From contig VEPD01000158.1 in assembly GCA_012027035.1 (NCBI GenBank), forward strand, positions 1-33,708: a stretch of 33,708 nucleotides of DNA, in the 5' to 3' direction. The stretch's first letter is position 1. Each line of letters starts with the position of its first letter. Origin of the DNA: Ruminiclostridium sp. (lineage in GTDB: Bacteria; Bacillota; Clostridia; Acetivibrionales; DTU013). The notes below the pieces were generated by a model. It worked only from the letters and a program-made list of their open reading frames with translations. It was not told the origin of the DNA and made no database searches. The translations under genes and the position numbers were made by a program. Positions 4,403 through 32,888 of the stretch are shown piece by piece.

Positions 4403-5051
4403 GAATCATATGGAGACTGAGTCTGTCTTTGTCTGCACAGTATGCGGCGAGCCTCTGTGCACTGATTGCGCTGTTGAGCTGGGCAGGAATATATGCTGCA
4501 GAGAATGCCTTAATAAAATAGTTGAACAAAAGACCGGTAACAAGGCTCCGGTAAAAAAAAGCTGGTGGTTAGCCATGCTGTTAAGTTTGGTACCCGGTAC
4601 CGGACATATGTATCTGGGATTGGTCAAAAAAGGCACCACAATAATGGCTCTCCTGTTTTCGCTGGTTTTCCTGATAATACTGCTTTCCGAGTCATCAGCC
4701 TGGCTGGCCGGTTATCTCATTCCTTCACTGTGCTTCATGTTTTTATCCTACAGCATCTTTGACTGTATTTCCCTTACAAGCAGGATAAATGCAGGTGAGG
4801 ACCTTCAGAATGAAGGCATATATGAGCTTGGACTTCTGAAAGAACTGATTATAAGAAGAAAAGGCCTTTTCAGCCTGGTATTGATAATTTCAGGCTCCAT
4901 CGGCATAGTCACCATCTTTTCAAAAGTGATCGGCGAGGTTCTTTTTAACCTTCTTGGAGTCCACTTTTCAATCGCTGCGTTCCTGATCCCGCTACTGCTC
5001 ATAATACTAGGCTTTTACCTTTTAAGGGAAGGCCGCAGCCGTAGATTTTGA
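4392..5051 (+). CDS. B-box-type zinc finger plus membrane protein
   Basis: CKNHMETESVFVCTVCGEPLCTDCAVELGRNICCRECL followed by several TM segments. Confidence 0.75.
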   Translation: MNCKNHMETESVFVCTVCGEPLCTDCAVELGRNICCRECLNKIVEQKTGNKAPVKKSWWLAMLLSLVPGTGHMYLGLVKKGTTIMALLFSLVFLIILLSESSAWLAGYLIPSLCFMFLSYSIFDCISLTSRINAGEDLQNEGIYELGLLKELIIRRKGLFSLVLIISGSIGIVTIFSKVIGEVLFNLLGVHFSIAAFLIPLLLIILGFYLLREGRSRRF

Positions 5052-5137
5052 GGTGTGATTTTGAGATATTTTATATTACGACAAGCTATTTGGGACGCCG
5101 TAGTCTCAAGAATCAGCGGACTATACTGCACAATCAG

Positions 5138-5250
5138 TACTACAGCGGCAATTTCATTATTATATCGGCATATATGCACCTTGCAGGATTAGTGCGAACG
5201 CTTTAACGCACTAACCCTGCAAGGATATAATGGTAATTGCCGCTGTAGTA
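5138..5250. repeat. Nested inverted repeat (large hairpin)
   Basis: tactacagcggcaatt (5138-5153) pairs with aattgccgctgtagta (5235-5250); inner ccttgcaggattagtgcg (5179-5196) pairs with cgcactaaccctgcaagg (5207-5224). Confidence 0.85.
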
Positions 5251-5287
5251 TTAGTAAAGGATAGGCAAAATAAATGTTGAACTATAA

Positions 5288-5779
5288 TTATGAAGCTTGT
5301 AGTTTACTATCTTTTGGATGGATACGTTTTCCAAATAATCCTTCTGAAAAAAATACAAGAACTATTAAACTCAAATAATCTTGCATTGCATCAAGAATCA
5401 TATTGTATTTTCCTAAATGCTCTGCTTTACCTACATGTTCCGGTATATATTCAAACATTAGAGTGATGACTGTAAATATGAGTATAACAAACAGTTTCTT
5501 TAAAAATTTCCGGGGGATAAAATACATTACTACTATAGCGCCGCCCGCTCCCCAAAGAAGGTGACATAAAGGTATGCCAAAAATAGGCAGGAACGCATTG
5601 GGAAATTGATATAATCCGGCGTTGATTAGAAATTCCTCGGTCAAAAACTGTACAACAAAGCCGAGAATAACCGTCGGGAATAATTCTTTAATACGTTTTG
5701 GATTACGCCAAAACAATACTAATATAACCAAGCACACGATTATAGTATAATATAAATAAATAAAATACCAAAAATTCAT
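5288..5779 (-). CDS. CBO0543-like membrane protein of unknown function
   Basis: MNFWYFIYLYYTIIVCLVILVLFWRNPKRIKELFPTVILGFVVQFLTEEFL...; SD GGGAGGA before ATG at 5779. Confidence 0.65.
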   Translation of the reverse strand: MNFWYFIYLYYTIIVCLVILVLFWRNPKRIKELFPTVILGFVVQFLTEEFLINAGLYQFPNAFLPIFGIPLCHLLWGAGGAIVVMYFIPRKFLKKLFVILIFTVITLMFEYIPEHVGKAEHLGKYNMILDAMQDYLSLIVLVFFSEGLFGKRIHPKDSKLQAS

Positions 5780-11587: not shown

Positions 11588-11662
11588 GCTGGTGTGGCTC
11601 AATGGCAGAGCAGCGGTATCGTAAACCGCAGGTTGAAGGTTCAATTCCTTTCACCAGCTCCA
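11588..11662 (+). tRNA. tRNA-Thr, anticodon CGT, CCA encoded
   Basis: Cloverleaf by eye: GCTGGTG/CACCAGC acceptor, GCTC/GAGC D stem, GCGGT ATCGTAA ACCGC anticodon arm, GAAGG TTCAATT CCTTT T arm, TCCA end. Confidence 0.88.
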
Positions 11663-12656: not shown

Positions 12657-13691
12657 TTAGACATTAATTTTTTTACCGGAATCCCAATCCCTATATAGCC
12701 CTGCAATTACCTGCTCAATTGGAGCCTTTTTTATTTCAACATCTCGAACTCCCTCGACTTCTGATAACTGACTCAATAAATCTCTGACAGGTGTTTTAGC
12801 AAGATCAACATCATATTCAAAGAGTCCGTTATTGGATGAAAGAAGGTTGCCGTTTTCAATTTTAGGGATAAAGCCCTGCTCCATCGTGATTGCAACTCTT
12901 GTGAGGTTGCCCGTAATAGAACGCAGCTCGCTGAAGCTTCCGTCAAAAGCGATTTTACCGGCAGAAATCATCAGAATACGTTCTGCCATTTCTTCGAGGT
13001 CATCCATGTCATGGCTTGTCACGATGATAGTTACAACATTATCCTTGTTGATTCTCTTAAGGAAATCGATCATCTGTCTCTTTGCTACAACATCAAGTCC
13101 GAGCGTCGGTTCATCCAGAAGAATTACCTCGGGATTATGTAACAGCATCATGGCGAGATCAGCTCTCATCCGCTGACCGAGGCTGAGCTCACGGGCGAAA
13201 GTTTTAAGTAAATTTCCTATGTGCAGAAGCTCTATGACCATCGCAAGGTTCTTTTTGTACATCTCATCAGAGATTCCCCAAACGACCTTTTTCCACTCAA
13301 GGCTCTGGATTACAGGATGATCCCACCATAACTCTGTACGATTGCCAAACAAAATCCCCAACCGCTGCATCAGTATTGTACGCTGTTTTTGCGGCGATAG
13401 GGACAAAACCGATATGTCACCGCTATTTGGCAGTAACATACCGCCGAGCAGCTTCATCGTCGTGCTTTTGCCTGCGCCATTGGGCCCAGCATACGCGACG
13501 AATTCGCCTTTTCGGATTGCAAAGGTGACGTCGTCAAGAGCTGTAATCGTTTGTTTTTCGGGCTTTATAAGATTCCTTATAAGCCCCATGCCGGTGTTGT
13601 CACGCTGCCATTGTGTGAAGGTTTTAGTAACATTGTTTATGCTAACGGCGAAATCCGTATGGCACATATCTGTTGGAGCCTTTTTTAACAT
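12657..13691 (-). CDS. ABC transporter ATP-binding protein (ABC-2 exporter type)
   Basis: Walker A AYAGPNGAGKSTTMKLLGG, signature ELSLGQRMRADLAMMLLHNPEVILLDEPTLGLDVVAK. Confidence 0.93.
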   Translation of the reverse strand: MLKKAPTDMCHTDFAVSINNVTKTFTQWQRDNTGMGLIRNLIKPEKQTITALDDVTFAIRKGEFVAYAGPNGAGKSTTMKLLGGMLLPNSGDISVLSLSPQKQRTILMQRLGILFGNRTELWWDHPVIQSLEWKKVVWGISDEMYKKNLAMVIELLHIGNLLKTFARELSLGQRMRADLAMMLLHNPEVILLDEPTLGLDVVAKRQMIDFLKRINKDNVVTIIVTSHDMDDLEEMAERILMISAGKIAFDGSFSELRSITGNLTRVAITMEQGFIPKIENGNLLSSNNGLFEYDVDLAKTPVRDLLSQLSEVEGVRDVEIKKAPIEQVIAGLYRDWDSGKKINV

Positions 13692-14496
13692 AATAGTTCA
13701 GTCCTTTCCTGAAAATAAAGCTTGCCGCGAGCGCTATAATCAGTGCATACGCAAGCGGGAAGTATTCTGTAAGATTTAAAGGCGGCTTACCGAGCAGACA
13801 GAGCGACGGGAACCACGCCATCAGCCCCTCCGGTAAAATCGTGAGCAGCGGTATCTGAATGAAGCTTGGCATCCCCGATAACGGGAATGTACTCAACTGC
13901 CATGTGCCTTCAATTGCTGTACTGGAGATTTCCTCGGCAGCTACCGGCGCATAAAACGCGACGCTGGATACCAAGTATGCACGGGCGACAATGATTATCA
14001 TGGTCGCAAGTATGTAAATGATTAGCAAGGTTATCCACCAAAGCGATACCTCAAGATGCAGTCGGTTTATGGCTATTGCCAGCAATATGCATCCTATGAT
14101 GAAGTTACCGCTTCCCGTAAACGGCGAAAAGCCGCTGGTTATAAGTTGTGTTTTTAATGTGAGCGGCTGCACAAAAAGGTGTTCGAGCTGCCCGCGTCCG
14201 ATGATGCGGCTGATGTGGATGTTATTGCCCGATCCAAATAGAATGAATATGCCTGTTGTAATGGTGGAATAAGCCATCATAAACAGAACCTCATCGACGC
14301 TCATGCCTCCGATTCCGCCAAAGCGGAGAGCAATCAAATAGACGCTCGATACGACGGAAAGATTGGATATGGTGTCAGCCAATATAGCTGTTAAAGCGAA
14401 TTTCGTATCGCGAAACAGCCACACCAAATCCATTTTTGCCGAGATTGCAAATAGGCTTATGAGCCGTTTGAGTTTGAAAGCTGATTTAACCCCCAT
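13642..14496 (-). CDS. ABC-2 family permease
   Basis: MGVKSAFKLKRLISLFAISAKMDLVWLFRDTKFALTAILADTISNLSVVSSVYLIALRFGGIGGMS; multiple TM; overlaps neighbours in an operon. Confidence 0.85.
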   Translation of the reverse strand: MGVKSAFKLKRLISLFAISAKMDLVWLFRDTKFALTAILADTISNLSVVSSVYLIALRFGGIGGMSVDEVLFMMAYSTITTGIFILFGSGNNIHISRIIGRGQLEHLFVQPLTLKTQLITSGFSPFTGSGNFIIGCILLAIAINRLHLEVSLWWITLLIIYILATMIIIVARAYLVSSVAFYAPVAAEEISSTAIEGTWQLSTFPLSGMPSFIQIPLLTILPEGLMAWFPSLCLLGKPPLNLTEYFPLAYALIIALAASFIFRKGLNYYVKKGSNRYVPYGFRR

Positions 14497-15253
14497 AGCT
14501 GACCATCCCCTCCTGTGATTTATTGAATGCAAGCAAGGCAGCAGGCCATAGGATGAGATTCCATATGATTTGCAGCCACAAGACACTTGCAGGTTCCGCC
14601 GCGCCAACAAATATTGATAGTGGCGCACCACCAAGGCAGGCAAAAGGCTGGTATTTCATTATTTCGCTGAATCCAAGCGGCAAAAAGCTGATTGGTATCA
14701 CTGTCCCGGATAAAAGCGCGATAATAGCAGCCCTTATGCGACCTATTAACCAACTCATGTTTCTCAGTTTTATCGACAGGCAGGCAAAGAGAACATCAAT
14801 GGCAAAACCGAGAGAGATGCAAAGTAATAGGCTGATTAGAAACCATATTGATGTTGGTCTCAGACTTACCCCAATAAGCGGAGAAAAAATCGCCATCGGC
14901 AGTGAGAATAAAGCCAACATGGGCAGCCATCCTCCAAACGTCTGCGAGATAAGCTGACCCAGAACAGACAGCGGGCGGCCATATAGTCTCATTAGAACAC
15001 CCTCGCTGAGCCATCCAGACGCCGCAGTTTTTACGACCATCATATCGGATAGCAAAGCGCTAACATATGTGTAAGAGAGCATTTGTTGCATACTCATACC
15101 TACATCTACCCCCGAAGACATGACCACTCTCCAAAGGAATATAAGAGGAATCAAAGTGCATATTTTGATGATGATGTCTGGCAGGAGGTAGAAAACCCCG
15201 CCGTTTGTTTTTTCAAGACAAACCATATGTGCTGTCTTTATATACTTAACCAT
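14486..15253 (-). CDS. ABC-2 family permease
   Basis: MVKYIKTAHMVCLEKTNGGVFYLLPDIIIKICTLIPLIFLWRVVMSSGVDVGMSMQQMLSYTY; SD AAGGAG before ATG at 15253. Confidence 0.85.
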   Translation of the reverse strand: MVKYIKTAHMVCLEKTNGGVFYLLPDIIIKICTLIPLIFLWRVVMSSGVDVGMSMQQMLSYTYVSALLSDMMVVKTAASGWLSEGVLMRLYGRPLSVLGQLISQTFGGWLPMLALFSLPMAIFSPLIGVSLRPTSIWFLISLLLCISLGFAIDVLFACLSIKLRNMSWLIGRIRAAIIALLSGTVIPISFLPLGFSEIMKYQPFACLGGAPLSIFVGAAEPASVLWLQIIWNLILWPAALLAFNKSQEGMVSYGG

Positions 15254-15289
15254 GTGCTTCTTGCTCCTTAACGATTGAAATTTGGGCAT

Positions 15290-15385
15290 AAAAATACCCA
15301 GGCATCCGTTTGAATACCTGAGTCAGTAACACATGATTAAGCCTGCGTAATCAGGCTGGACTTATGTGTGGCAAGAGGTATTCAA
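15290..15385 (-). promoter_or_regulatory. Candidate transcription attenuator (terminator / antiterminator) upstream of ABC operon
   Basis: Terminator-like stem CAGGTAT..ATGCCTG followed by GGTATTTTT; alternative pairing TTGAATACCT (15385-15376) with AGGTATTCAA (15319-15310), 10 bp perfect; upstream hairpin ACACAT..AGCCTG..CAGGCT..ATGTGT (15369-15329). Confidence 0.6.
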
Positions 15386-15550
15386 CACGGCGAAATGGAC
15401 ACAGTAATCCCATAACTGACCAAAATTGGCGCAAATAACGAGTAAAAGGGCAGACTTCACCCATGACGCCGCATTTTTGAATGCGTAGCCTTTAATGTAT
15501 TCGCAATTCAAATACACATCGCCATTACTGCAAAAAGCAGAAATATTCAT
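15362..15550 (-). CDS. Small ORF (62 aa), candidate leader peptide
   Basis: MNISAFCSNGDVYLNCEYIKGYAFKNAASWVKSALLLVICANFGQLWDYCVHFAVLNTSCHT; SD AAAGGTGG eight nt upstream of ATG; lies between a consensus promoter and the attenuator. Confidence 0.5.
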   Translation of the reverse strand: MNISAFCSNGDVYLNCEYIKGYAFKNAASWVKSALLLVICANFGQLWDYCVHFAVLNTSCHT

Positions 15551-15582
15551 ACCTCTCACCACCTTTCGCTAAAGATGAAATT

Positions 15583-15611
15583 ATTATACAACACTGCTTT
15601 AATGATGTCAA
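15583..15611 (-). promoter_or_regulatory. SigA-type promoter for leader ORF/ABC operon
   Basis: Reverse strand TTGACA - 17 nt - TATAAT. Confidence 0.75.
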
Positions 15612-16125
15612 ATATTGCAGGCAACCGAAAAATGCAAGCGTGAGCTTAAGACTGTCGAAAAGAGAATCGCCGAGCTGGACAAGATTTTAAACAAGCTCTA
15701 CGAGGACTTGGCTCTCGAAAAGGTCACGGAGGAACGCTATCAGGTCATGTCCAAAGGCTATGAGGAAGAACAGTCAGGACTTAAGGAGCGGCGGAATCAT
15801 TCTCACCGAACTGATTACCCGCGCTGAGTCGGCGTATGAAAATATCGATAAATTCCTGCCGATTATACAGAAGTATACTGATATCTCCGAACTCAATACG
15901 CACATTTTAAATGAACTGATACAGAAAATTGTTGTATATGAAAAGACAGACAATCCTGACGGCAGCAAAAGCCAGCGGGTGGATATCCATTATAAATTTA
16001 TCGGGTATGTGGAGATGAAAGAGATGTTTGGGCTGCCGATGGTCATGGCAATGGCAAAAGGTGTTGAAATTGATGATGTGCTGATAGCCGAAGCCAAAGG
16101 ATTAGCGAAAGAGCTTGCCGGATAG
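15612..16125 (+). pseudogene. C-terminal remnant of a large serine recombinase (resolvase/DUF4368 type), frameshifted
   Basis: KCKRELKTVEKRIAELDKILNKLYEDLALEKVTEERYQVMSKGYEEEQSGLKER then, after a frame change, ITRAESAYENIDKFLPIIQKYTDISELNTHILNELIQKIVVYEKTDNPDGSKSQRVDIHYKFIGYV. Confidence 0.8.
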
Positions 16126-16225: not shown

Positions 16226-16289
16226 TTGGATTACTTAAATTACTTCTATGTTTGAGGTAATTTATTTCATAATACAGGAGGACGTGCGA

Positions 16290-17126
16290 ATGGTGGAATT
16301 ATCAATATTTGAAAGAATAAAAAGAGTTAACGAATATGGTTCGGAATACTGGCTTGCTCGTGAGTTGCAAGGGGCTTTAGATTATAAACACTGGCGCAGT
16401 TTTGTTAATGCAATTGATAAAGCAAAAATAGCTTGTGAAAACAGTGGTAATGCGGTTTCTGACCATTTTGCGGACGTCCGCAAAATCGTCGAAGCAGGTG
16501 TCACTTCGAAAGATATTGGTGACATTAAATTATCACGTTATGCCTGTTATTTGATTGTTCAAAACGGCGACCCACGCAAAAAAAGTATTGCACTTGGTCA
16601 AACATATTTTGCAATCCAAACCCGTCGCCAGGAAATAGCCTATGGAAACCTGCTGGATGAAGATCAGAGACGACTCAAAATTCGCGCTGACGTAAAGCAT
16701 TGGAACAGAGAACTCGCCGACAGAGCTCTTGAAGCAGGTATTCAAACAGAGCTGGAATATGCCACTTTTCAAAATGCCGGGTATATGGGTCTTTACGGCG
16801 GTCTCACCGTGGAAGATATTCATAAACGAAAAAAGTTATCCAAGAACGAGAAAATACTGGATAACATGGGGAGTGTGGAGCTAGCTGCTAACCTTTTCAG
16901 GATTACACAGACGGAAGATAAATTAAGAAGAGAGCAAATTTTTGATAAAAAGGTTGCGACAAAAACACACCATGCTGTAGGGAAAAAGGTGAGGCAAACT
17001 ATTAAGGAATTAGGCGGCGAGATGCCGGAGAATCTGCCCAAGCCTGAACTTGATATCAAAAAGCTAGAAAATAAAATAAAGAAAGAGATTAAAAAGAGCA
17101 AGAAACCACCGATGTTGGATGAATAA
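16290..17126 (+). CDS. dinD: DinD-like DNA damage-inducible protein (Bro-N-like), copy 1
   Basis: EYWLARELQGALDYKHWRSFVNAIDKAKIACENSG...SDHFADVRKIV...LSRYACYLIVQNGDPRKKSIALGQTYFAIQTRRQE; ATG at 16290 with SD GGAGG. Confidence 0.88.
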   Translation: MVELSIFERIKRVNEYGSEYWLARELQGALDYKHWRSFVNAIDKAKIACENSGNAVSDHFADVRKIVEAGVTSKDIGDIKLSRYACYLIVQNGDPRKKSIALGQTYFAIQTRRQEIAYGNLLDEDQRRLKIRADVKHWNRELADRALEAGIQTELEYATFQNAGYMGLYGGLTVEDIHKRKKLSKNEKILDNMGSVELAANLFRITQTEDKLRREQIFDKKVATKTHHAVGKKVRQTIKELGGEMPENLPKPELDIKKLENKIKKEIKKSKKPPMLDE

Positions 17127-17129
17127 GTG

Positions 17130-17155
17130 TAAACCCGTCGAATTCGACGGGTTTA
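17130..17155. repeat. Palindrome B (26 bp perfect)
   Basis: TAAACCCGTCGAATTCGACGGGTTTA immediately after dinD copy 1; same sequence family as palindrome A. Confidence 0.9.
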
Positions 17156-17169
17156 GAGAACAGTTGTCA

Positions 17170-17193
17170 AATTGCCTCGAAATTGAGGCAATT
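17170..17193. repeat. Palindrome C
   Basis: AATTGCCTC GAAATT GAGGCAATT upstream of the HEPN-like gene. Confidence 0.88.
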
Positions 17194-17225
17194 AACTTTC
17201 TGAATAGAAGACAGGGGGAAATCTA

Positions 17226-17842
17226 ATGAGTAAAAAGCCCGAGTCCCCATTTGGACTATTAAGAAACAAATCAATCTGAGTCATGCTCTAATTGAAGAAA
17301 TGAAAGTTATAAATGAACAGTGTGAACACATGGGAATTCCTAAGCTATTTAACAAAACTTTTGGAACCCACTATTCTGAGATGCCAGAGGGATTTCGAAA
17401 TATACTTTTGCCAACTCTGAAAAATTATTATGACTTTGTTCTCGTGCTTGAAAAAATCATTGTGCATAATATTTCTTATAAAACATTTCAAAAAGATGCC
17501 CCGCATATACGAAGTATTGACCGCAAGGATGAATCAGGCAAAGATAAAGGAAGCCTCGTGATGTTTGAAGAATGGCTTAGTAAAAATATCCGGACACAAG
17601 AAAATCTCGCAGATTTAATAATTAAGCCATTAAAAAACATAAGAAATATTCGTCAAAAACCAGCACATGAATTAACATCTAACGAATATGATGTTACGCT
17701 ATATCAGAAGCAGTTTAATTTAATGAATGATACATATACAGCAATCAGAGCTATAAGGATGTTTTTTGCTAATCACCCTTTAGCGAAAGATGTAAAAGTT
17801 CCAGAACACTTGGTTTCTGGAAAAGACATTGTGAATTATTAG
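17226..17842 (+). pseudogene. HEPN-like protein with an N-terminal frameshift (intact ORF 17300-17842)
   Basis: ORF contains RX4H motif RQKPAH within IKPLKNIRNIRQKPAHELTSNEYD. MSKKPESPFGLLR (ATG 17226, SD GGGGGAA) and KQINLSHALIEEMKVINEQ lie in frames offset by one nt. Confidence 0.55.
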
Positions 17843-17850
17843 AGATTCAT

Positions 17851-17872
17851 AACTGGTCGTTTTTCACCAGTT
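17851..17872. repeat. Palindrome D
   Basis: AACTGGT CGTTTTTC ACCAGTT followed by TATCTTTA, downstream of the HEPN-like gene. Confidence 0.85.
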
Positions 17873-17919
17873 TATCTTTAAAGTCTGCAGTCAATGTTTG
17901 CAGATTTTAATTCCTTGAT

Positions 17920-17943
17920 CATTTTGCTGACCTCAGCAAAATG
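17920..17943. repeat. Intergenic palindrome resembling an internal dinD segment
   Basis: CATTTTGCTGA CC TCAGCAAAATG, 11-bp arms; about 48 bp around it aligns to dinD (GGATTTT..TGATCATTTT.CTGAC.TCAG.AAAA). Confidence 0.75.
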
Positions 17944-18068
17944 GTGTAAAATAGTGAAAGATATCTTTTAAATATATCACGCAATTGACTATTTGCGCAT
18001 AACGTGTTATTATAATGTCAATAATATTAACAAAATAAGTACATAATAATAACAAGAGAAAGGAGCCC

Positions 18069-18719
18069 TTGCCTATGGAACGTTTTACTTACGGTGAATT
18101 TATCACGAACAAAATAGCTGATATTCCGTATGGGCAGTCATTTCAGACTGACATCATAGCGGAGGCAATGGCTGAAGAATATGCAATCCCTGTCCATAAA
18201 GCCAAACCAATTACCAACGTCACCTTGAAACGTTTGGCGGACAGGGGATTGATTGAGCGTTTTCAAAAAGGCGTTTATTATCGTGCCAAGCAAACCGTAT
18301 TCGGTAAAGCTCGTCCGAGCGAAGATATACTTGAGGCACAGCTTCTTACCCGCCGCGGTAATGAAATCATCGGATACGAAACAGGATTATCCCTTATGAA
18401 TAAAATAGGTCTGACCACACTTGTCCCCAAAAAGCGTGAGATTGCCACTAACGCTTACCGCAAAAATATAAATGACAGATATATCATTGCAAGAAAGCCG
18501 GTTATCACGGTTAACGCAGGTAATTTCCGCTATCTGCAGCTTCTTGATGTCATCAGAGATTTGCCGGAGGCACCTGTCGATGCTGAGAATCCTAAAGCAC
18601 TGCTTCATGCCTTCACAGAAAAGAATGGGCTGGATACGGTTGAAACCTTGACATATGCCAAGCAGCACTACCCGCAAAAAACACTGCTCAACTTGGTAGA
18701 TGTGCTGGTGGAGAGGTGA
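18069..18719 (+). CDS. AbiEi-type antitoxin / DUF6088 family transcriptional regulator
   Basis: PKAHKAKPITNVTLKRLADRGLIERFQKGVYYR-like winged-helix region, overlapped by the AbiEii gene. Confidence 0.8.
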   Translation: MPMERFTYGEFITNKIADIPYGQSFQTDIIAEAMAEEYAIPVHKAKPITNVTLKRLADRGLIERFQKGVYYRAKQTVFGKARPSEDILEAQLLTRRGNEIIGYETGLSLMNKIGLTTLVPKKREIATNAYRKNINDRYIIARKPVITVNAGNFRYLQLLDVIRDLPEAPVDAENPKALLHAFTEKNGLDTVETLTYAKQHYPQKTLLNLVDVLVER

Positions 18720-19690
18720 TGGAAATGAAGCTGCATAAAGACAGAGACGCTTTTCAAGCGTTGCTTTCAACAATATCAGAAAAGACAGGAATCAGGGAAG
18801 ATATTATAGAAAAAGATTACTACCTTACCCTGCTTCTTTCTGAGCTAGCTTTATGGCAAACAGAACTGCCTGCGTATTTCAAGGGCGGTACTGCATTATA
18901 CAAGGCAATCGGGAGTCTGAAAAGGTTTTCTGAAGATATTGATCTGATGGTTGAAGTGCAGGATTGCTCAAAATCTCAAGGTAAAAAGAGACTGGAAACT
19001 GCGGCAAATGGCTACAGCTCTCTGACAAGAACGAGCGATAAAACCAGGGAGACTAACACAAAAGGAAGCATTACCAGCGTTTATGAATATCAACCGGTGA
19101 CAAAAATTGATGTTGATGATACCCTTCAGAGATTCGGATATGTAAAAGTAGAAGCGACTTCCTTCACAGTAAGTGAACCCGTGGAATCTCTAATGGTTGC
19201 ACCTTTGCTGTATATAGGGGCAGGCGATGAGCAACATGTTATTCTTCATGATTACTATGACGTGTTTCCTTTTGAAGTTAAGACTATCAAAATGGAGCGC
19301 ATCTTCGCGGACAAGGTTCTGGCAGCTGAATTTTATTATCAGAGGCAAATGCTGTTTGATGTTGCAAAGCATTTATACGACCTGACTTTGATGATGAAAA
19401 CCGAAAGAATCTCTGCCCTTCTTACTCAGCGAGATGAACTGCTTAAAATGCTTGAATATAAACGGCGGGAGGAACAAAACAGAATTGGCAGCGACTTGGC
19501 ACAAAAGTCTTTTGCCGACTTCTGGCTATTCAAAGCCCTCGAAAGTGATGCTAAGTTACAGGCGACTTTTGCTGAAATGCAGAGGATTTACGTTTTTAAC
19601 GACGCCGATGTAATACCGTTTACGGAAGTAAAAAAACAAATGATTAAGCTTTACAAGGTATTGCAGGAGATAGACAGAAAACTGAAATAA
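18716..19690 (+). CDS. AbiEii-type nucleotidyltransferase toxin
   Basis: FKGGTALYKAIGSLKRFSEDIDLMVE nucleotidyltransferase signature. Confidence 0.9.
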   Translation: MMEMKLHKDRDAFQALLSTISEKTGIREDIIEKDYYLTLLLSELALWQTELPAYFKGGTALYKAIGSLKRFSEDIDLMVEVQDCSKSQGKKRLETAANGYSSLTRTSDKTRETNTKGSITSVYEYQPVTKIDVDDTLQRFGYVKVEATSFTVSEPVESLMVAPLLYIGAGDEQHVILHDYYDVFPFEVKTIKMERIFADKVLAAEFYYQRQMLFDVAKHLYDLTLMMKTERISALLTQRDELLKMLEYKRREEQNRIGSDLAQKSFADFWLFKALESDAKLQATFAEMQRIYVFNDADVIPFTEVKKQMIKLYKVLQEIDRKLK

Positions 19691-19743
19691 TATAAGATTG
19701 TTTTTTGCTAATCATCCTTTGACAAATGACGTAAAAGTTCCGG
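19691..19743 (+). pseudogene. Tail fragment of a second HEPN-like gene copy
   Basis: ataagattgttttttgctaatcatcctttgacaaatgacgtaaaagttccgg vs 17750-17802 ataaggatgttttttgctaatcaccctttagcgaaagatgtaaaagttccag. Confidence 0.85.
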
Positions 19744-20013
19744 GAATCCTAACGTGTGTGGAGCAAAAGCTGTGAGCTTGTCCGCAAGTATACAGTTTGC
19801 ATTTGGAAGTTGCACAGAAACAACGGGAGGCTCTATAAGCAGCAGTTCATGATGGTTTGTCCATTATACATGCAGACAGCCATGCGTTTTGGCAAAAATC
19901 AGTTTTTTTAACAAAATGCTATTTATATTAAAGCTTAAACGGATGTGGAATATTTTGTCGGTTAGTGTTATCATTAATGCAATAAACATTTGTATTTTCG
20001 AGGTAGAGACAAA

Positions 20014-21213
20014 ATGGGGCTTTTTGATGTGGTGCCAAGCAATTTCTTTTCGGTATTGGTATCAGGAAATAGAGAAATATACGTTGATGCGCTTATGCTT
20101 TTGCATCAGATTTTTAAATTCGAGTTAAACATTCGAGTGGATGATTATATTTCATCGCTGATTTCCATATTGGAAGGCAAGGCTTTTGTCCCCGAAGATG
20201 ATGATGAGATGCAGGAAAACAGCCTAACACTAGGCGGAAAGGCTCGTTTGATACTGAATCGTTTCGTTAAAACTGGCTGGGTCGACAAGGAGTTCCTCGA
20301 CGGTTCATTTATCGAAATCATTACACCGCGTAATTACGCCATATCAGTCATGAAATTGCTCAGCGAGTTGGGTGACAAGTCGCTGCACGAGTATAATTCA
20401 CTTGTTTTTGCAACTTATTCCGGATTAAAGCAAGCGAAAAGCGAAAATGAATCACAAATGTATGAGGCCGTTTTATCTGCGAGAGCCAATACCGAACAGT
20501 TGGAATACGAATTACGCACGTTATACCATGGGATTCGTGGGTTCTTGCGCAGCATACAAGAGAAAAATGATGTTAATCTGTTGTTGCAAAATCACTTTGA
20601 GGAATACAAAAAGATGTCTGACCGAATCTATCATCCAATTAAAACGATGGACTCTATTCATCGCTACATGGCTCCAATCCAAAATATTTTATCCGATATA
20701 CTGGCGGATGATAACCTGATGCGTATCATGCGTGAGAGGGCTATGACCGTTAAAAAGTATGACGATGAAGTTGAAGCAGAAAAGGAAATTATATCTGCGA
20801 TCGACTATGTTTTGGACGCTTATCAGTCCGTGGGCGGTATTGTAAATGAGATAGACAGAAAGCATAGTACTTATACAAAAAGCTCCATTGAAAAAATACA
20901 ATATTTAATGACAGCCGACCAAACCATCAAAGGTAAGCTCGTTGAAATGTTAAAAACATACGCAAAAGCAGCAAGCGGAGAGCGTAACGCTCTAGGGGAT
21001 ATGTTTGAAAGGAACATCCGTGTGAACCGTCAAGAGTTTGTGGATGGCAGAAGGACGAATCGAGCGCAATGGATATCGCTTTCCCAATATGATTATCCGC
21101 AAAAAGGAGGGCAAAAGTCATGTGGAATGAACAATATGAGGCTCTATCCTCTTATGAAAAAGGAGAGTTTCGCAGACTGGCCAACTATTTATAATCCCAT
21201 ACATACATGGTGA
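20014..21213 (+). pseudogene. jetA: Wadjet JetA-like protein (DUF5716) with altered/truncated C-terminus
   Basis: MGLFDVVPSNFFSVLVSGNREIYVDALMLLHQIFKFELNIRVDDYISSLISILEG...; ORF reads through the jetB start out of frame (KSCGMNNMRLYPLMKKES). Confidence 0.72.
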
Positions 21214-21215
21214 GA
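21120..21215 (+). pseudogene. jetB: jetB remnant (N-terminus only, in-frame TAA)
   Basis: MWNEQYEALSSYEKGEFRRLANYL*SHTYMVR. Confidence 0.65.
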
Positions 21216-21216
21216 T

Positions 21217-21420
21217 ATGAAGTTCGATAAATTGAATTTTCTCACCGGAAAAAATGCTTCCGGAAAGTCTACAATTATCGACGCGATGCAATTAATTCTG
21301 CTGGGAGATACCAGCGGCAGCTTTTTCAATAAAGCAGCCGCTAGACATGGTAATAGAACATTAGCGGGATATCTCAGAGGTGAGATGTGTTATAAATTAT
21401 GTGTAGATTCAAGTATTTAG
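21217..21420 (+). pseudogene. jetC: jetC remnant (Walker A region of SMC/MukB-like ATPase)
   Basis: FDKLNFLTGKNASGKSTIIDAMQLILLGDTSGSFFNKAAARHGNRTLAGYLRGE then stop after unrelated residues. Confidence 0.75.
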
Positions 21421-21484
21421 TTTTTAATTATGTTATAGTGAAAACAAGATAGTTTCCATTAAGGAGCGGCACGGAGGAATAAAA

Positions 21485-22339
21485 ATGTCAAATTTGAATG
21501 CTGAGGAATATAAATCATTTGAAGGTATCAAGCACATTCGTGAAAACGGAACGGAATTTTGGTATGCTCGTGAGCTTTCTGAGATATTACAGTATAACAA
21601 ATGGGAAAATTTCCGAAAGGTAATTGACCGCGCAATTCTGGCATGTAAAAACAGTGGATTTTCAGTCTCTGATCATTTTCCTGACGTCAGGAAAACGATA
21701 ACGATGCCTAAGAATGCAAAAAAACAAATCATCGATTTTGAACTCACAAGATATGCTTGTTACTTGATTGTTCAAAACGGTGATCCGCGAAAAGAAATCA
21801 TCGCTCTGGGTCAAACCTATTTTGCTATACAGACACGGCGTCAGGAGGTCCAAGATGCCTTTAATCAGCTTGACGAAAATAACAAGCGGTTAGTTGTTCG
21901 TGGCAATATAAAACAATGGAATCAGCTCCTTGCTGAAGCGGCACACAATGCCGGAGTTATTACCGATGAGGAATTTGCAATCTTCCAGAATGCCGGATAC
22001 ATGGGGCTTTATGGTGGCATGACGGTCTCCGATATTCATACGAGAAAAGGCTTAAAGAAAAACGATAAAATCCTTGATTATATGGGCAGCACAGAGCTGA
22101 TTGCTAATCTGTTCAGAATTTCGCAGACTGAAGAAAAGCTGAAGCGGGATGAGGTTTCCACGGTGGAAGCCGCAAATAATACCCATTACGAGGTCGGTGA
22201 AAAAATCCGTAAAGCCATTATTGAAATGGGCGCTACCCTTCCAGAAGATCTGCCGGTGCCGGAGAAAAGCATTCAAACCATTGAACGGGGAGGAAATCCG
22301 CAAGCTAAGAAATTCAAAAAAGAAGCTGATGCTGGATGA
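21485..22339 (+). CDS. dinD: DinD-like protein, copy 2
   Basis: GTEFWYARELSEILQYNKWENFRKVIDRAILACKNSGFSVSDHFPDVRKT...LTRYACYLIVQNGDPRKEIIALGQTYFAIQTRRQE. Confidence 0.88.
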   Translation: MSNLNAEEYKSFEGIKHIRENGTEFWYARELSEILQYNKWENFRKVIDRAILACKNSGFSVSDHFPDVRKTITMPKNAKKQIIDFELTRYACYLIVQNGDPRKEIIALGQTYFAIQTRRQEVQDAFNQLDENNKRLVVRGNIKQWNQLLAEAAHNAGVITDEEFAIFQNAGYMGLYGGMTVSDIHTRKGLKKNDKILDYMGSTELIANLFRISQTEEKLKRDEVSTVEAANNTHYEVGEKIRKAIIEMGATLPEDLPVPEKSIQTIERGGNPQAKKFKKEADAG

Positions 22340-22350
22340 ATAAATGAATA

Positions 22351-22455
22351 TGTGGTATCCGATTGAAAATGGCCAAACTATTTGCTGACGTCAACAAAAT
22401 GGTCAAGCGAAGGATATTAAGATTATCAAGGCGGCTAATACGCATGGATACCACA
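22351..22455. repeat. Inverted-repeat-bounded 105-bp element with inner TGACGTCA palindrome
   Basis: tgtggtatcc (22351-22360) / ggataccaca (22446-22455) enclosing tttgctgacgtcaacaaa (22381-22398). Confidence 0.8.
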
Positions 22456-22463
22456 TTTCTTAA

Positions 22464-22485
22464 ATTGCCTCGAATTCGAGGCAAT
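22464..22485. repeat. Palindrome E (22 bp perfect)
   Basis: ATTGCCTCGAATTCGAGGCAAT; same family as palindrome C. Confidence 0.9.
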
Positions 22486-22533
22486 AATAACAAATTTGTT
22501 ATTGTAAAACAATAACGAATATGTTATTATAAT
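22486..22533 (+). promoter_or_regulatory. Tandem operator pair and -10 box for TA operon
   Basis: AATAACAAATTTGTTATT (22486-22503) and AATAACGAATATGTTATT (22511-22528), 25 bp apart, next to TATAAT. Confidence 0.75.
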
Positions 22534-22558
22534 ACTATAGATGAGGGGAACACTAAGA

Positions 22559-22918
22559 ATGTTCGAAATTGAATTTTACGAAGACCGAAGCGGCAATGAA
22601 CCTATAAAGGATTTCATAATTGAACTGCAGACAAAAGGACAAACAAGCAAAAACGAGAGTATTCGGAGTGAAAAAATTCTGACCTACATCAGAGTACTGC
22701 AGGAATATGGAACAAGAGCGGGAGAACCTTTTGTCAAGCACATCGAAGATGATATCTGGGAACTGCGCCCGCTGGATGACAGGATATTCTTTTTCTACTT
22801 CAGAGATAACACTTTTGTATTGCTTCATCATTTTCTGAAGAAAACAAAGAAGATTCCCCGAAGAGAAATTGAGCAGGCCAAAAGGAATTTAGCCGACCAC
22901 CTTGAAAGGAGCAAATAG
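22559..22918 (+). CDS. RelE/HigB-family (Gp49-like) toxin
   Basis: MFEIEFYEDRSGNEPIKDFIIELQTKG...GEPFVKHIEDDIWELRPLDDRIFFFYFRDNTFVLLHHFLKKTKKIPRREIEQAKR. Confidence 0.9.
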   Translation: MFEIEFYEDRSGNEPIKDFIIELQTKGQTSKNESIRSEKILTYIRVLQEYGTRAGEPFVKHIEDDIWELRPLDDRIFFFYFRDNTFVLLHHFLKKTKKIPRREIEQAKRNLADHLERSK

Positions 22919-31249: not shown

Positions 31250-31273
31250 GTATACTGAGAGGTGGTGGCGATA

Positions 31274-32098
31274 ATGCAAACAAAAGTCATTCTTGAAAAA
31301 CAAGATCTTACATATCTGTCTTGGACGAAAATCCGGAATTCTTCAGGAACAGCAGGATCTTTTCTTAAGTCATATTTCGACCTTGGTGGAGAGAAAGTCT
31401 ATTATAAGCTTTCCAACTATGATGCTTATAAAGGGATTGTTGGCCATGAGTGCGTCAACGAACTGATTGTGGATCGTCTGCTGACCATCCTTGGGGTTGA
31501 GCATCTGAACTACCATCTAATACATGCGGACATTTTGATTGATGGGCAGCCCCATGAAACTTACCTTTGTGCCTCCTCTGATTTCAAGAAACGCGGCGAA
31601 AGCAAGATTGCTCTGGATACCTACTACCAGGCTGAACGAGAGGATGGTGAAAAACCACTGGACTTTTGCCTGCGCAACGGTTGGTCGGAGTATATATGGA
31701 AGATGTTGGTTGTAGATTTTCTGATACTGAACAGAGACCGTCACGGGGCCAATATTGAGGTGCTGCGTAACTCAAAGGTAAAAACACTGCGCCTTGCACC
31801 GCTATTTGACCACGGTCTCTCCCTGATTTTCAACTGCAAGGATAAAGAGGCTGCCCATGCATTCGATATTATGGCAGATAAACCGGTGCAGTGCTTCGTC
31901 GGTTCCAAATCTGCGGAAGATAACCTGAAGCTGATTCCGAAAGATAGTTTACCGCGATTGAATCCTCTTCGGGAATCTAATCGTGAGATGCTGTTTACCA
32001 ATCTGGAAACTGTTTTATCGCAGGTATGTATAGACAAAATATGGGAAATGCTTTGGCGGAGGTGGATGTTTTATGAAGATTTTTGCAATCAGGAATGA
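31274..32098 (+). CDS. HipA-like kinase-fold protein
   Basis: RNSSGTAGSFLKSYF...YYKLSNYDAYKGIVGHECVNELIVDRLLTILG...VVDFLILNRDRHGANIEVL...LAPLFDHGLSLIF; SD GAGGTGG before ATG 31274. Confidence 0.8.
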   Translation: MQTKVILEKQDLTYLSWTKIRNSSGTAGSFLKSYFDLGGEKVYYKLSNYDAYKGIVGHECVNELIVDRLLTILGVEHLNYHLIHADILIDGQPHETYLCASSDFKKRGESKIALDTYYQAEREDGEKPLDFCLRNGWSEYIWKMLVVDFLILNRDRHGANIEVLRNSKVKTLRLAPLFDHGLSLIFNCKDKEAAHAFDIMADKPVQCFVGSKSAEDNLKLIPKDSLPRLNPLRESNREMLFTNLETVLSQVCIDKIWEMLWRRWMFYEDFCNQE

Positions 32099-32888
32099 AA
32101 CCGATCCTGCCAGCAAAGATATTGCTTTCCTGATCTACTACGAGCGGGATAAGCGGTTTTACATCGAGCTTCCGGAAAACGCAGACCCTTGGGAAACGCC
32201 GCTTTTACTGTCCTCCTTCCTGAAGCGTGGCGAACAGACGGTAAACGCCTACTGGAGCAGAACGTGGGTGCAGCAGCGCATTACTCCATCCGACCGGCAG
32301 AATCTTGGGCAGATATTGAAAGATAACGGGCTAGAAGCCTACGATGAGTTTGATTTGCTAATGCTGGCAGACGGTCGCTGTGCTCAGGACGATTATTATC
32401 TGGTATCTATCTCTGAGGCGGATCTGCCGGAGAGCTTTGTGCGACGCTTTCAGAAGAAAGTAGAAGATGTCGTTCCACTCACAAAAAAACAACTATTAGT
32501 CTTCTTTCGGGACGGGAATGTAAAAATGTGTGATGTGGAGTCGCTTCTGGCAAACGACAAAACCTTTTCGCCTATCTGGAAAGATGAGAATCTGTTCCGT
32601 AGCGTCTGTATACAGCCGGGTGGCTATGGAGTCTGTTGGGGCGAAAATTTGAATATCGCGGATGATGTACTCTATGACCGCGGCAAGGATGTTCCGCTGT
32701 CCCTGGAGGACTTCCGGCGGTTCGTTGAAAGCCGAGTCGTCAACACGGCAGAAGCTGCTGAACTGCTCGGCTGTTCCCGGCAAAATATCGAAGATCTAAT
32801 CCGCCGTAACAAGCTGCACCTCATAAAAGCCACGCCAAAGAATAAGCTCTTTTTGAAAAGTGAAATCATCCAGCGGAACTGGAAGTAA
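32073..32888 (+). CDS. DUF2442-like domain plus C-terminal excisionase-type HTH, partner of HipA-like protein
   Basis: VVPLTKKQLLVFFRDGNVKMCDVESLL...VCIQPGGYGVCWGENLNIADDVLYDRG, then VVNTAEAAELLGCSRQNIEDLIRRNKLHLIKATPKNKLFLKSEI; overlaps upstream gene. Confidence 0.72.
   Translation: MKIFAIRNETDPASKDIAFLIYYERDKRFYIELPENADPWETPLLLSSFLKRGEQTVNAYWSRTWVQQRITPSDRQNLGQILKDNGLEAYDEFDLLMLADGRCAQDDYYLVSISEADLPESFVRRFQKKVEDVVPLTKKQLLVFFRDGNVKMCDVESLLANDKTFSPIWKDENLFRSVCIQPGGYGVCWGENLNIADDVLYDRGKDVPLSLEDFRRFVESRVVNTAEAAELLGCSRQNIEDLIRRNKLHLIKATPKNKLFLKSEIIQRNWK

Follow-up and report, generated by a model that had tools for sequence, protein, structure and literature searches.

The leader that precedes a three-gene ABC-2 exporter operon on the minus strand of a Ruminiclostridium sp. 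contig (VEPD01000158.1; the whole 33,708-nucleotide stretch that was analysed is called the window) is very probably a ribosome-mediated transcription attenuator in which three competing helices control the operon (probability roughly 0.87). This reading is built on directly observed sequence elements, on their conservation and covariation among related leaders and on the outcomes of predicted folding. Its strongest argument is a dual complementarity that six leaders share, wherein a segment called C is complementary to segments B and D alike, and segment B to segments A and C alike. Leader-peptide transcription attenuation had been proposed for this locus by a first-pass annotation, and the proposal is supported by the homologous leaders that precede this operon in relatives, by covariation in both the antiterminator and the terminator, by insertions and deletions that stay in frame and by the lack of such leaders at paralogous exporters. 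Found together in the leader are the structural hallmarks of this class of regulator: an open reading frame (ORF) with a Shine–Dalgarno (SD) sequence, an intrinsic terminator and a mutually exclusive antiterminator that overlaps the ORF.

Organization of the leader and its operon

A sigma-70-type promoter (15583..15611, minus strand) is evident by direct reading, with a −35 hexamer TTGACA at 15611–15606, a 17-nt spacer and a −10 hexamer TATAAT at 15588–15583; both hexamers are also found in the related leaders G040, G363, G836 and L001. Between the promoter and the leader ATG (15550–15548) lies an SD-rich stretch, AAAGGTGGTGAGAGG. The leader ORF (15362..15550, minus strand), identified by direct reading, comprises 62 codons (MNISAFCSNG...NTSCHT) and ends with TAA at 15364–15362, and an in-frame GTG at 15562 would extend the peptide to 66 amino acids. 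Beyond the ORF, an intrinsic terminator (CTCAGGTATTCAAACGGATGCCTGGG plus TATTTTT; 15290..15322, minus strand) is formed by segments C and D. Its stem, CAGGTAT (15320–15314) with ATGCCTG (15305–15299), is followed by GGTA and then TTTTT (15294–15290), whose end at 15290 sits 36 nt ahead of the permease ATG.

Segment B (TTGAATACCTCTTGCCAC; 15368..15385, minus strand) occupies the end of the ORF and is the strand common to two alternative helices. In the antiterminator, TTGAATACCT (15385–15376) is the exact reverse complement, over 10 bp, of segment C (AGGTATTCAA; 15310..15319, minus strand). The promoter, the 62-aa ORF, the terminator and this 10-bp pairing had all been located correctly by the first-pass annotation. 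Its inventory of helices held B:C and C:D but overlooked a longer pairing, in which segment A (GTGGTGAGAGGTAT; 15549..15562, minus strand), made up of the SD region and the beginning of the ORF, forms 14 bp with the end of that ORF (15562–15549 with 15381–15368). This third helix, to which A contributes the 5′ strand of a putative anti-antiterminator, competes with the antiterminator for segment B. When the start region is blocked, the predicted fold also contains, within the antiterminator, a helix ACACAT/ATGTGT (15369–15364 with 15334–15329; 15329..15369, minus strand) that encloses an inner hairpin AGCCTG/CAGGCT (15357–15352 with 15345–15340, minus strand). A candidate pause hairpin inside the ORF, GGGU/GCCC, shifts register between relatives and is broken in G836, and is therefore not claimed.

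Folding of the leader, which had been suggested along with covariation as a check, gives a z score of −6.0, with none of 100 dinucleotide shuffles as stable. The exact 10-bp match carries little weight alone, with an estimated 0.05 or so such 10-mer matches expected by chance in a 320-nt leader, and the B:C duplex in the window alone is matched by 68 of 500 shuffles; the pairing stands above chance because it is conserved in relatives.

Profile searches place two DUF990/ABC-2 permease genes and one ATPase gene downstream of the leader, all on the minus strand. Permease 1 (14486..15253; Pfam ABC2_membrane_6/DUF990, PF06182) scores 27.8 bits and permease 2 (13642..14496, with its start set at an internal ATG at 14496) scores 88.5 bits, both above the curated Pfam cut-off of 22 for this exporter class. 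Permease 1 begins with the ATG at 15253, and AAGGAG is located 10 nt upstream. The ABC transporter ATPase (12657..13691; PF00005, 82 bits) has drrA as its nearest named family but scores below the DrrA cut-off (TIGR01188, 157.7 versus 312.45 bits). A search of PDB with the permease profile gave no match.

At the opposite flank of the operon, a tRNA-Thr gene (anticodon CGT; 11588–11662, plus strand) is a possible integration site. Immediately divergent from the leader promoter is the C-terminal remnant of a serine recombinase (DUF4368; 15615–16125, plus strand, two overlapping frames), whose missing N-terminal part may reflect truncation by insertion of the exporter cassette or by another event. 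The plus-strand cluster at 16248–22918 looks like a defence or mobile island, carrying two DinD-like BRO-N proteins (16248–17126 and 21485–22339), an AbiEi/AbiEii pair between their genes (18069–19690) and a Gp49-like RelE-type protein (22541–22918). At 31262–32888 (plus strand), a protein with a weak HipA C-terminal match, below its curated cut-off, precedes a DUF2442 protein that matches a helix-turn-helix domain.

Conservation of the pairings among related leaders

Relatives were sought by DNA, peptide-profile and permease-profile searches of whole genomes. Homologous leaders lie ahead of the same ABC-2 exporter in G040, G363, G836, G113 and G785, and more diverged leaders precede the same permease in G290, G732 and G773; permease identity to that of the window is 87% in G040, 80% in G363, 69% in G113 and 38% in G290. 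Searching species genomes with the peptide yielded one relative, and extending the searches to the families and orders of G785, G363, G113 and G732 brought in G836 alone. Of the weak peptide-profile matches inspected in the class, nearly all proved to be chance frames; the one in G290 was accepted as real, given that it is followed by the same permease. An orphan copy, L001 (in G072, 4930–5330), carries a promoter, SD, ORF and terminator with no exporter gene before hisH, and has about 50 nt of additional hairpin-forming sequence between the end of the ORF and the terminator.

For covariation, we used an ungapped alignment of the arms of six leaders, and a set of six to seven close leaders is small for this purpose. 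The complementary segments are indeed conserved. Antiterminator B:C is paired in 96.7% of cells, with 3 of its 10 pairs changed on both sides (two leaders, for example, have G-C in place of A-U at columns 25/43), and pairing falls to 18–47% when the partner is slid. Terminator C:D is paired in 93.9% of cells, with two pairs changed on both sides, and A:B is paired in 97.6% of cells across the six leaders. A compensatory change from ATATACC/GGTATAT in G363 to ATATGCC/GGCATAT in G836 occurs in the region of the inner antiterminator helix (15329..15369). Among the more diverged leaders, CCTCTTGCC is retained also in G732 and G773, though mostly outside B:C, and the modelled B:C pairing could not be found in G290.

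In 10 of the 12 leaders tested, the SD:ORF-end duplex is stronger than 90% or more of the dinucleotide shuffles, and in 9 it is stronger than 96% or more. Specifically, the number of shuffles per 500 that were at least as strong was 5 for the window, 4 for G040, 5 for G363, 4 for G836, 2 for G785, 0 for G290, 2 for G773, 17 for G732 and 0 for G634. The duplex is weaker in L001 (47/500) and G113 (68/500), and there is none in G810 (435/500).

Predicted folding at different ribosome positions

Once D is present, the terminator wins at equilibrium in nearly all ribosome states of the full leader, so that the switch has to operate kinetically. As equilibrium folding of the whole leader says little for this reason, we instead folded RNA that ends just after C, with arm D not yet transcribed and ribosome positions blocked, for seven leaders. 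With a ribosome on codons 1–5, B:C is predicted to form (8–11 pairs) in all seven; with a ribosome on codons 56–58, at the end of the ORF, B:C is predicted in none. With no ribosome, the equilibrium fold before D contains A:B in the window and B:C in several relatives, which makes the anti-antiterminator role of A:B less certain than the roles of B:C and C:D.

According to the model, if there is no ribosome, or once a ribosome has gone past, A would pair with B and C with D, and transcription would stop at about position 15290. A ribosome on the last codons would mask B and cause termination as well. By comparison, a ribosome that stays on or close to the start codon would cover A; B would then be free to pair with C while D is still untranscribed, and read-through into the exporter genes by RNA polymerase would follow. 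Termination and read-through by RNA polymerase in this way, with read-through dependent on ribosome position, are what this scheme predicts.

Parts of this logic had been anticipated. The idea that an early-stalled ribosome frees B agrees with the folds for codons 1–5 in all seven leaders; past codon 5 in the window, A:B wins. The companion idea, that a ribosome finishing the ORF masks B, agrees with the loss of B:C at codons 56–58, but the stop codon lies further downstream in most relatives, and a ribosome at that stop no longer covers segment B. The position of the stop codon in these relatives suggests that the SD:ORF-end helix is needed to withhold B from the antiterminator.

Since the A:B helix can form again once a ribosome has travelled past, the design would favour arrest at the first codons, as judged from equilibrium folding and a kinetic argument. 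The leader SD supplies a strand of the switch and encloses the ORF in full, and the element may respond selectively to ribosomes that stop on the first few codons. A preference for early arrest would match drugs that arrest initiating ribosomes, as has been reported for vmlR (PMC9226507). We infer that the stalling signal is an antibiotic and that the best inducers would be drugs that stop ribosomes during initiation or very early elongation, such as those of the lincosamide, pleuromutilin or streptogramin A type.

The main rival to a first-codon preference is that attenuation is real but the arrest site hardly matters, so that any ribosome slowdown before the end of the ORF would induce and the leader would serve as a general sensor of translation stress. 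This is a serious possibility, albeit one that we hold at less than even odds. At equilibrium, B:C beats A:B for a stall almost anywhere before codon 40 in four of the seven leaders (G363, G836, G113 and mostly L001), whereas A:B prevails in the window as described above and in G785 for codons 6–8. Furthermore, A:B, which is strongly kept, can already fold before transcription reaches C.

The exporter subfamily and its leaders

The exporter subfamily occurs in 7 of 391 class-sampled genomes, that of the window included (at least 299 bits, with paralogs at 83 or below), and in 9 of 399 phylum-sampled genomes, again counting the window's own. This sparse and scattered distribution would fit horizontal spread of the exporter together with its leader. 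Gene neighbourhoods of the relatives contain the same three-gene operon and no shared neighbour. Searches of plasmids (with leader DNA and permease protein) and phages (with leader DNA) gave no match or chance matches only; in IMG/VR, a pattern for the ORF core returned nothing, an SD pattern returned two matches, neither of which is a leader, and no permease match was confirmed.

A leader ORF plus terminator is found upstream of at least 11 of 17 subfamily exporters (nine recognized by script, with G113 and G290 added by eye) versus 0 of 21 paralogous exporters. Two of these 11, G634 and G810, have leaders without evident sequence similarity to that of the window. The dissimilar leaders (35 and 38 aa) and their terminators are located at about 1250–1500, in gene orientation, on L082 and L085. 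In G634 the leader SD again pairs with the end of the ORF, and recurrence of this design in a dissimilar leader suggests selection for sensing early ribosome arrest.

Only G059 departs from the common gene arrangement, and the neighbourhoods elsewhere give no clue to function. There, the permease gene overlaps the end of an ABC-F gene by 4 nt (L073, 2131–4484, minus strand). The ABC-F gene passes the NCBI ribosomal-protection-like cut-off (439 versus 380 bits), and a terminator-like hairpin lies upstream of it, near the contig end.

Evidence for translation of the leader ORF, and alternative explanations

The leader ORF and its SD are retained in eight relatives, and indels in the ORF among homologous leaders measure 3 or 6 nt, the sole exception being a 1-nt deletion near the 3′ end of the window's ORF. 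Pairwise dN/dS upstream of segment B is mostly 0.15–0.54, with a value of 0.88 for the closest pair, which differs by few changes. Because RNA structure may add to this constraint, the ratios support, rather than prove, translation of the ORF. The deletion in the window alters the last codons and leaves segment B unchanged, which argues that the RNA, and not the C-terminal peptide, is conserved there. No Pfam or NCBIfam family matches the leader peptide.

A translated leader could instead sense a shortage of an amino acid through uncharged tRNA, as classical biosynthetic leaders do. The mechanism would suit any stalled ribosome, and the peptides seem to be translated and partly conserved. We nevertheless consider this explanation unlikely, as no leader peptide found has a run of a single amino acid, the regulated genes encode an exporter rather than a biosynthetic pathway, and the exporter of one relative is joined to an ABC-F gene. 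Even less probable is a riboswitch or protein-binding attenuator in which translation takes no part. The structured and conserved 5′ region with its terminator and antiterminator would fit such an element, but the leader SD itself builds one of the helices, the ORF and SD persist with indels in frame, and a search of the leader finds no Rfam family above its gathering threshold (the best, NsiR1, scores 19.6 versus 39 bits, E 0.18). Least credible is the first-pass annotation's alternative of a Cys-rich exported peptide, here widened to a secreted or bacteriocin-like exporter substrate with incidental RNA folds: although the peptide is small and hydrophobic, has five Cys in the window copy and a dN/dS below 1, and adjoins an ABC exporter, its Cys positions are not conserved among homologs, its C terminus is frameshifted in the window where the RNA segment is kept, no double-glycine processing site is seen in it, a Pfam search finds no peptidase domain in the ATPase, and the RNA helices show compensatory changes.

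Probable function and relation to known systems

With ribosome-mediated attenuation as the preferred reading, the pump most likely exports a ribosome-targeting drug, and its inducer is probably a drug that arrests initiating ribosomes; the ABC-F overlap in G059 offers an indirect link to antibiotics. More tentatively, the SD-closed ORF of 62–80 codons may be a selective sensor of initiation arrest, and the DUF990 subfamily an unrecognised inducible resistance pump against drugs of this initiation-arresting kind. The attenuator points to inducible drug export as the likely role of a definable subfamily within a class of exporters that is otherwise anonymous, and the inducing drug would provide a handle for finding the substrate of the pump. 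The attenuator family, which spans several bacterial families and is matched by no Rfam, Pfam or NCBIfam model, adds to the known set. In the papers that we consulted, we found no description of this leader family or of attenuation of DUF990 exporters; one survey of attenuators reports several ‘ABC-leaders’ (PMC2965389), among which the family may already be listed. The mechanism is already known, and the attenuator family itself seems to be undescribed.

In trp-type attenuators, alternative 1:2, 2:3 and 3:4 pairings are governed by control codons. These pairings match A:B, B:C and C:D, but control codons are absent here and the leader SD serves as segment 1. Trp-type attenuation has also been contrasted with the bmrB leader of the bmrCD multidrug ABC exporter in Bacillus subtilis, a 53-aa ORF that is induced by ribosome-targeting antibiotics (PMC4191407). 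As with bmrB, a leader ORF would control an ABC exporter; unlike bmrB, where the terminator resides inside the leader ORF, the terminator here lies beyond the stop codon, the leader SD itself supplies a strand of the third helix, and the exporter is of the DUF990 ABC-2 type with a separate ATPase (PMC4191407).

The vmlR attenuator of B. subtilis, which is induced by lincosamides and pleuromutilins, relies on ribosome arrest at the beginning of an upstream ORF to prevent formation of an anti-antiterminator, leading to antitermination (PMC9226507), and the same step is modelled here. The vmlR ORF has only three codons, however, its leader sequesters the main gene's SD as well, and the regulated gene encodes an ABC-F protein (PMC9226507). 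Systems such as msrD and hflXr (lmo0762) likewise combine a small ORF with a terminator that is switched by antibiotic-stalled ribosomes (PMC10314930, PMC6310831), but their ORFs are short (14 aa with an RLR motif in hflXr), and no RLR arrest motif is present in the leader peptides found here. By analogy, the best reading is that the leader works like bmrB-bmrCD (PMC4191407) and vmlR (PMC9226507).
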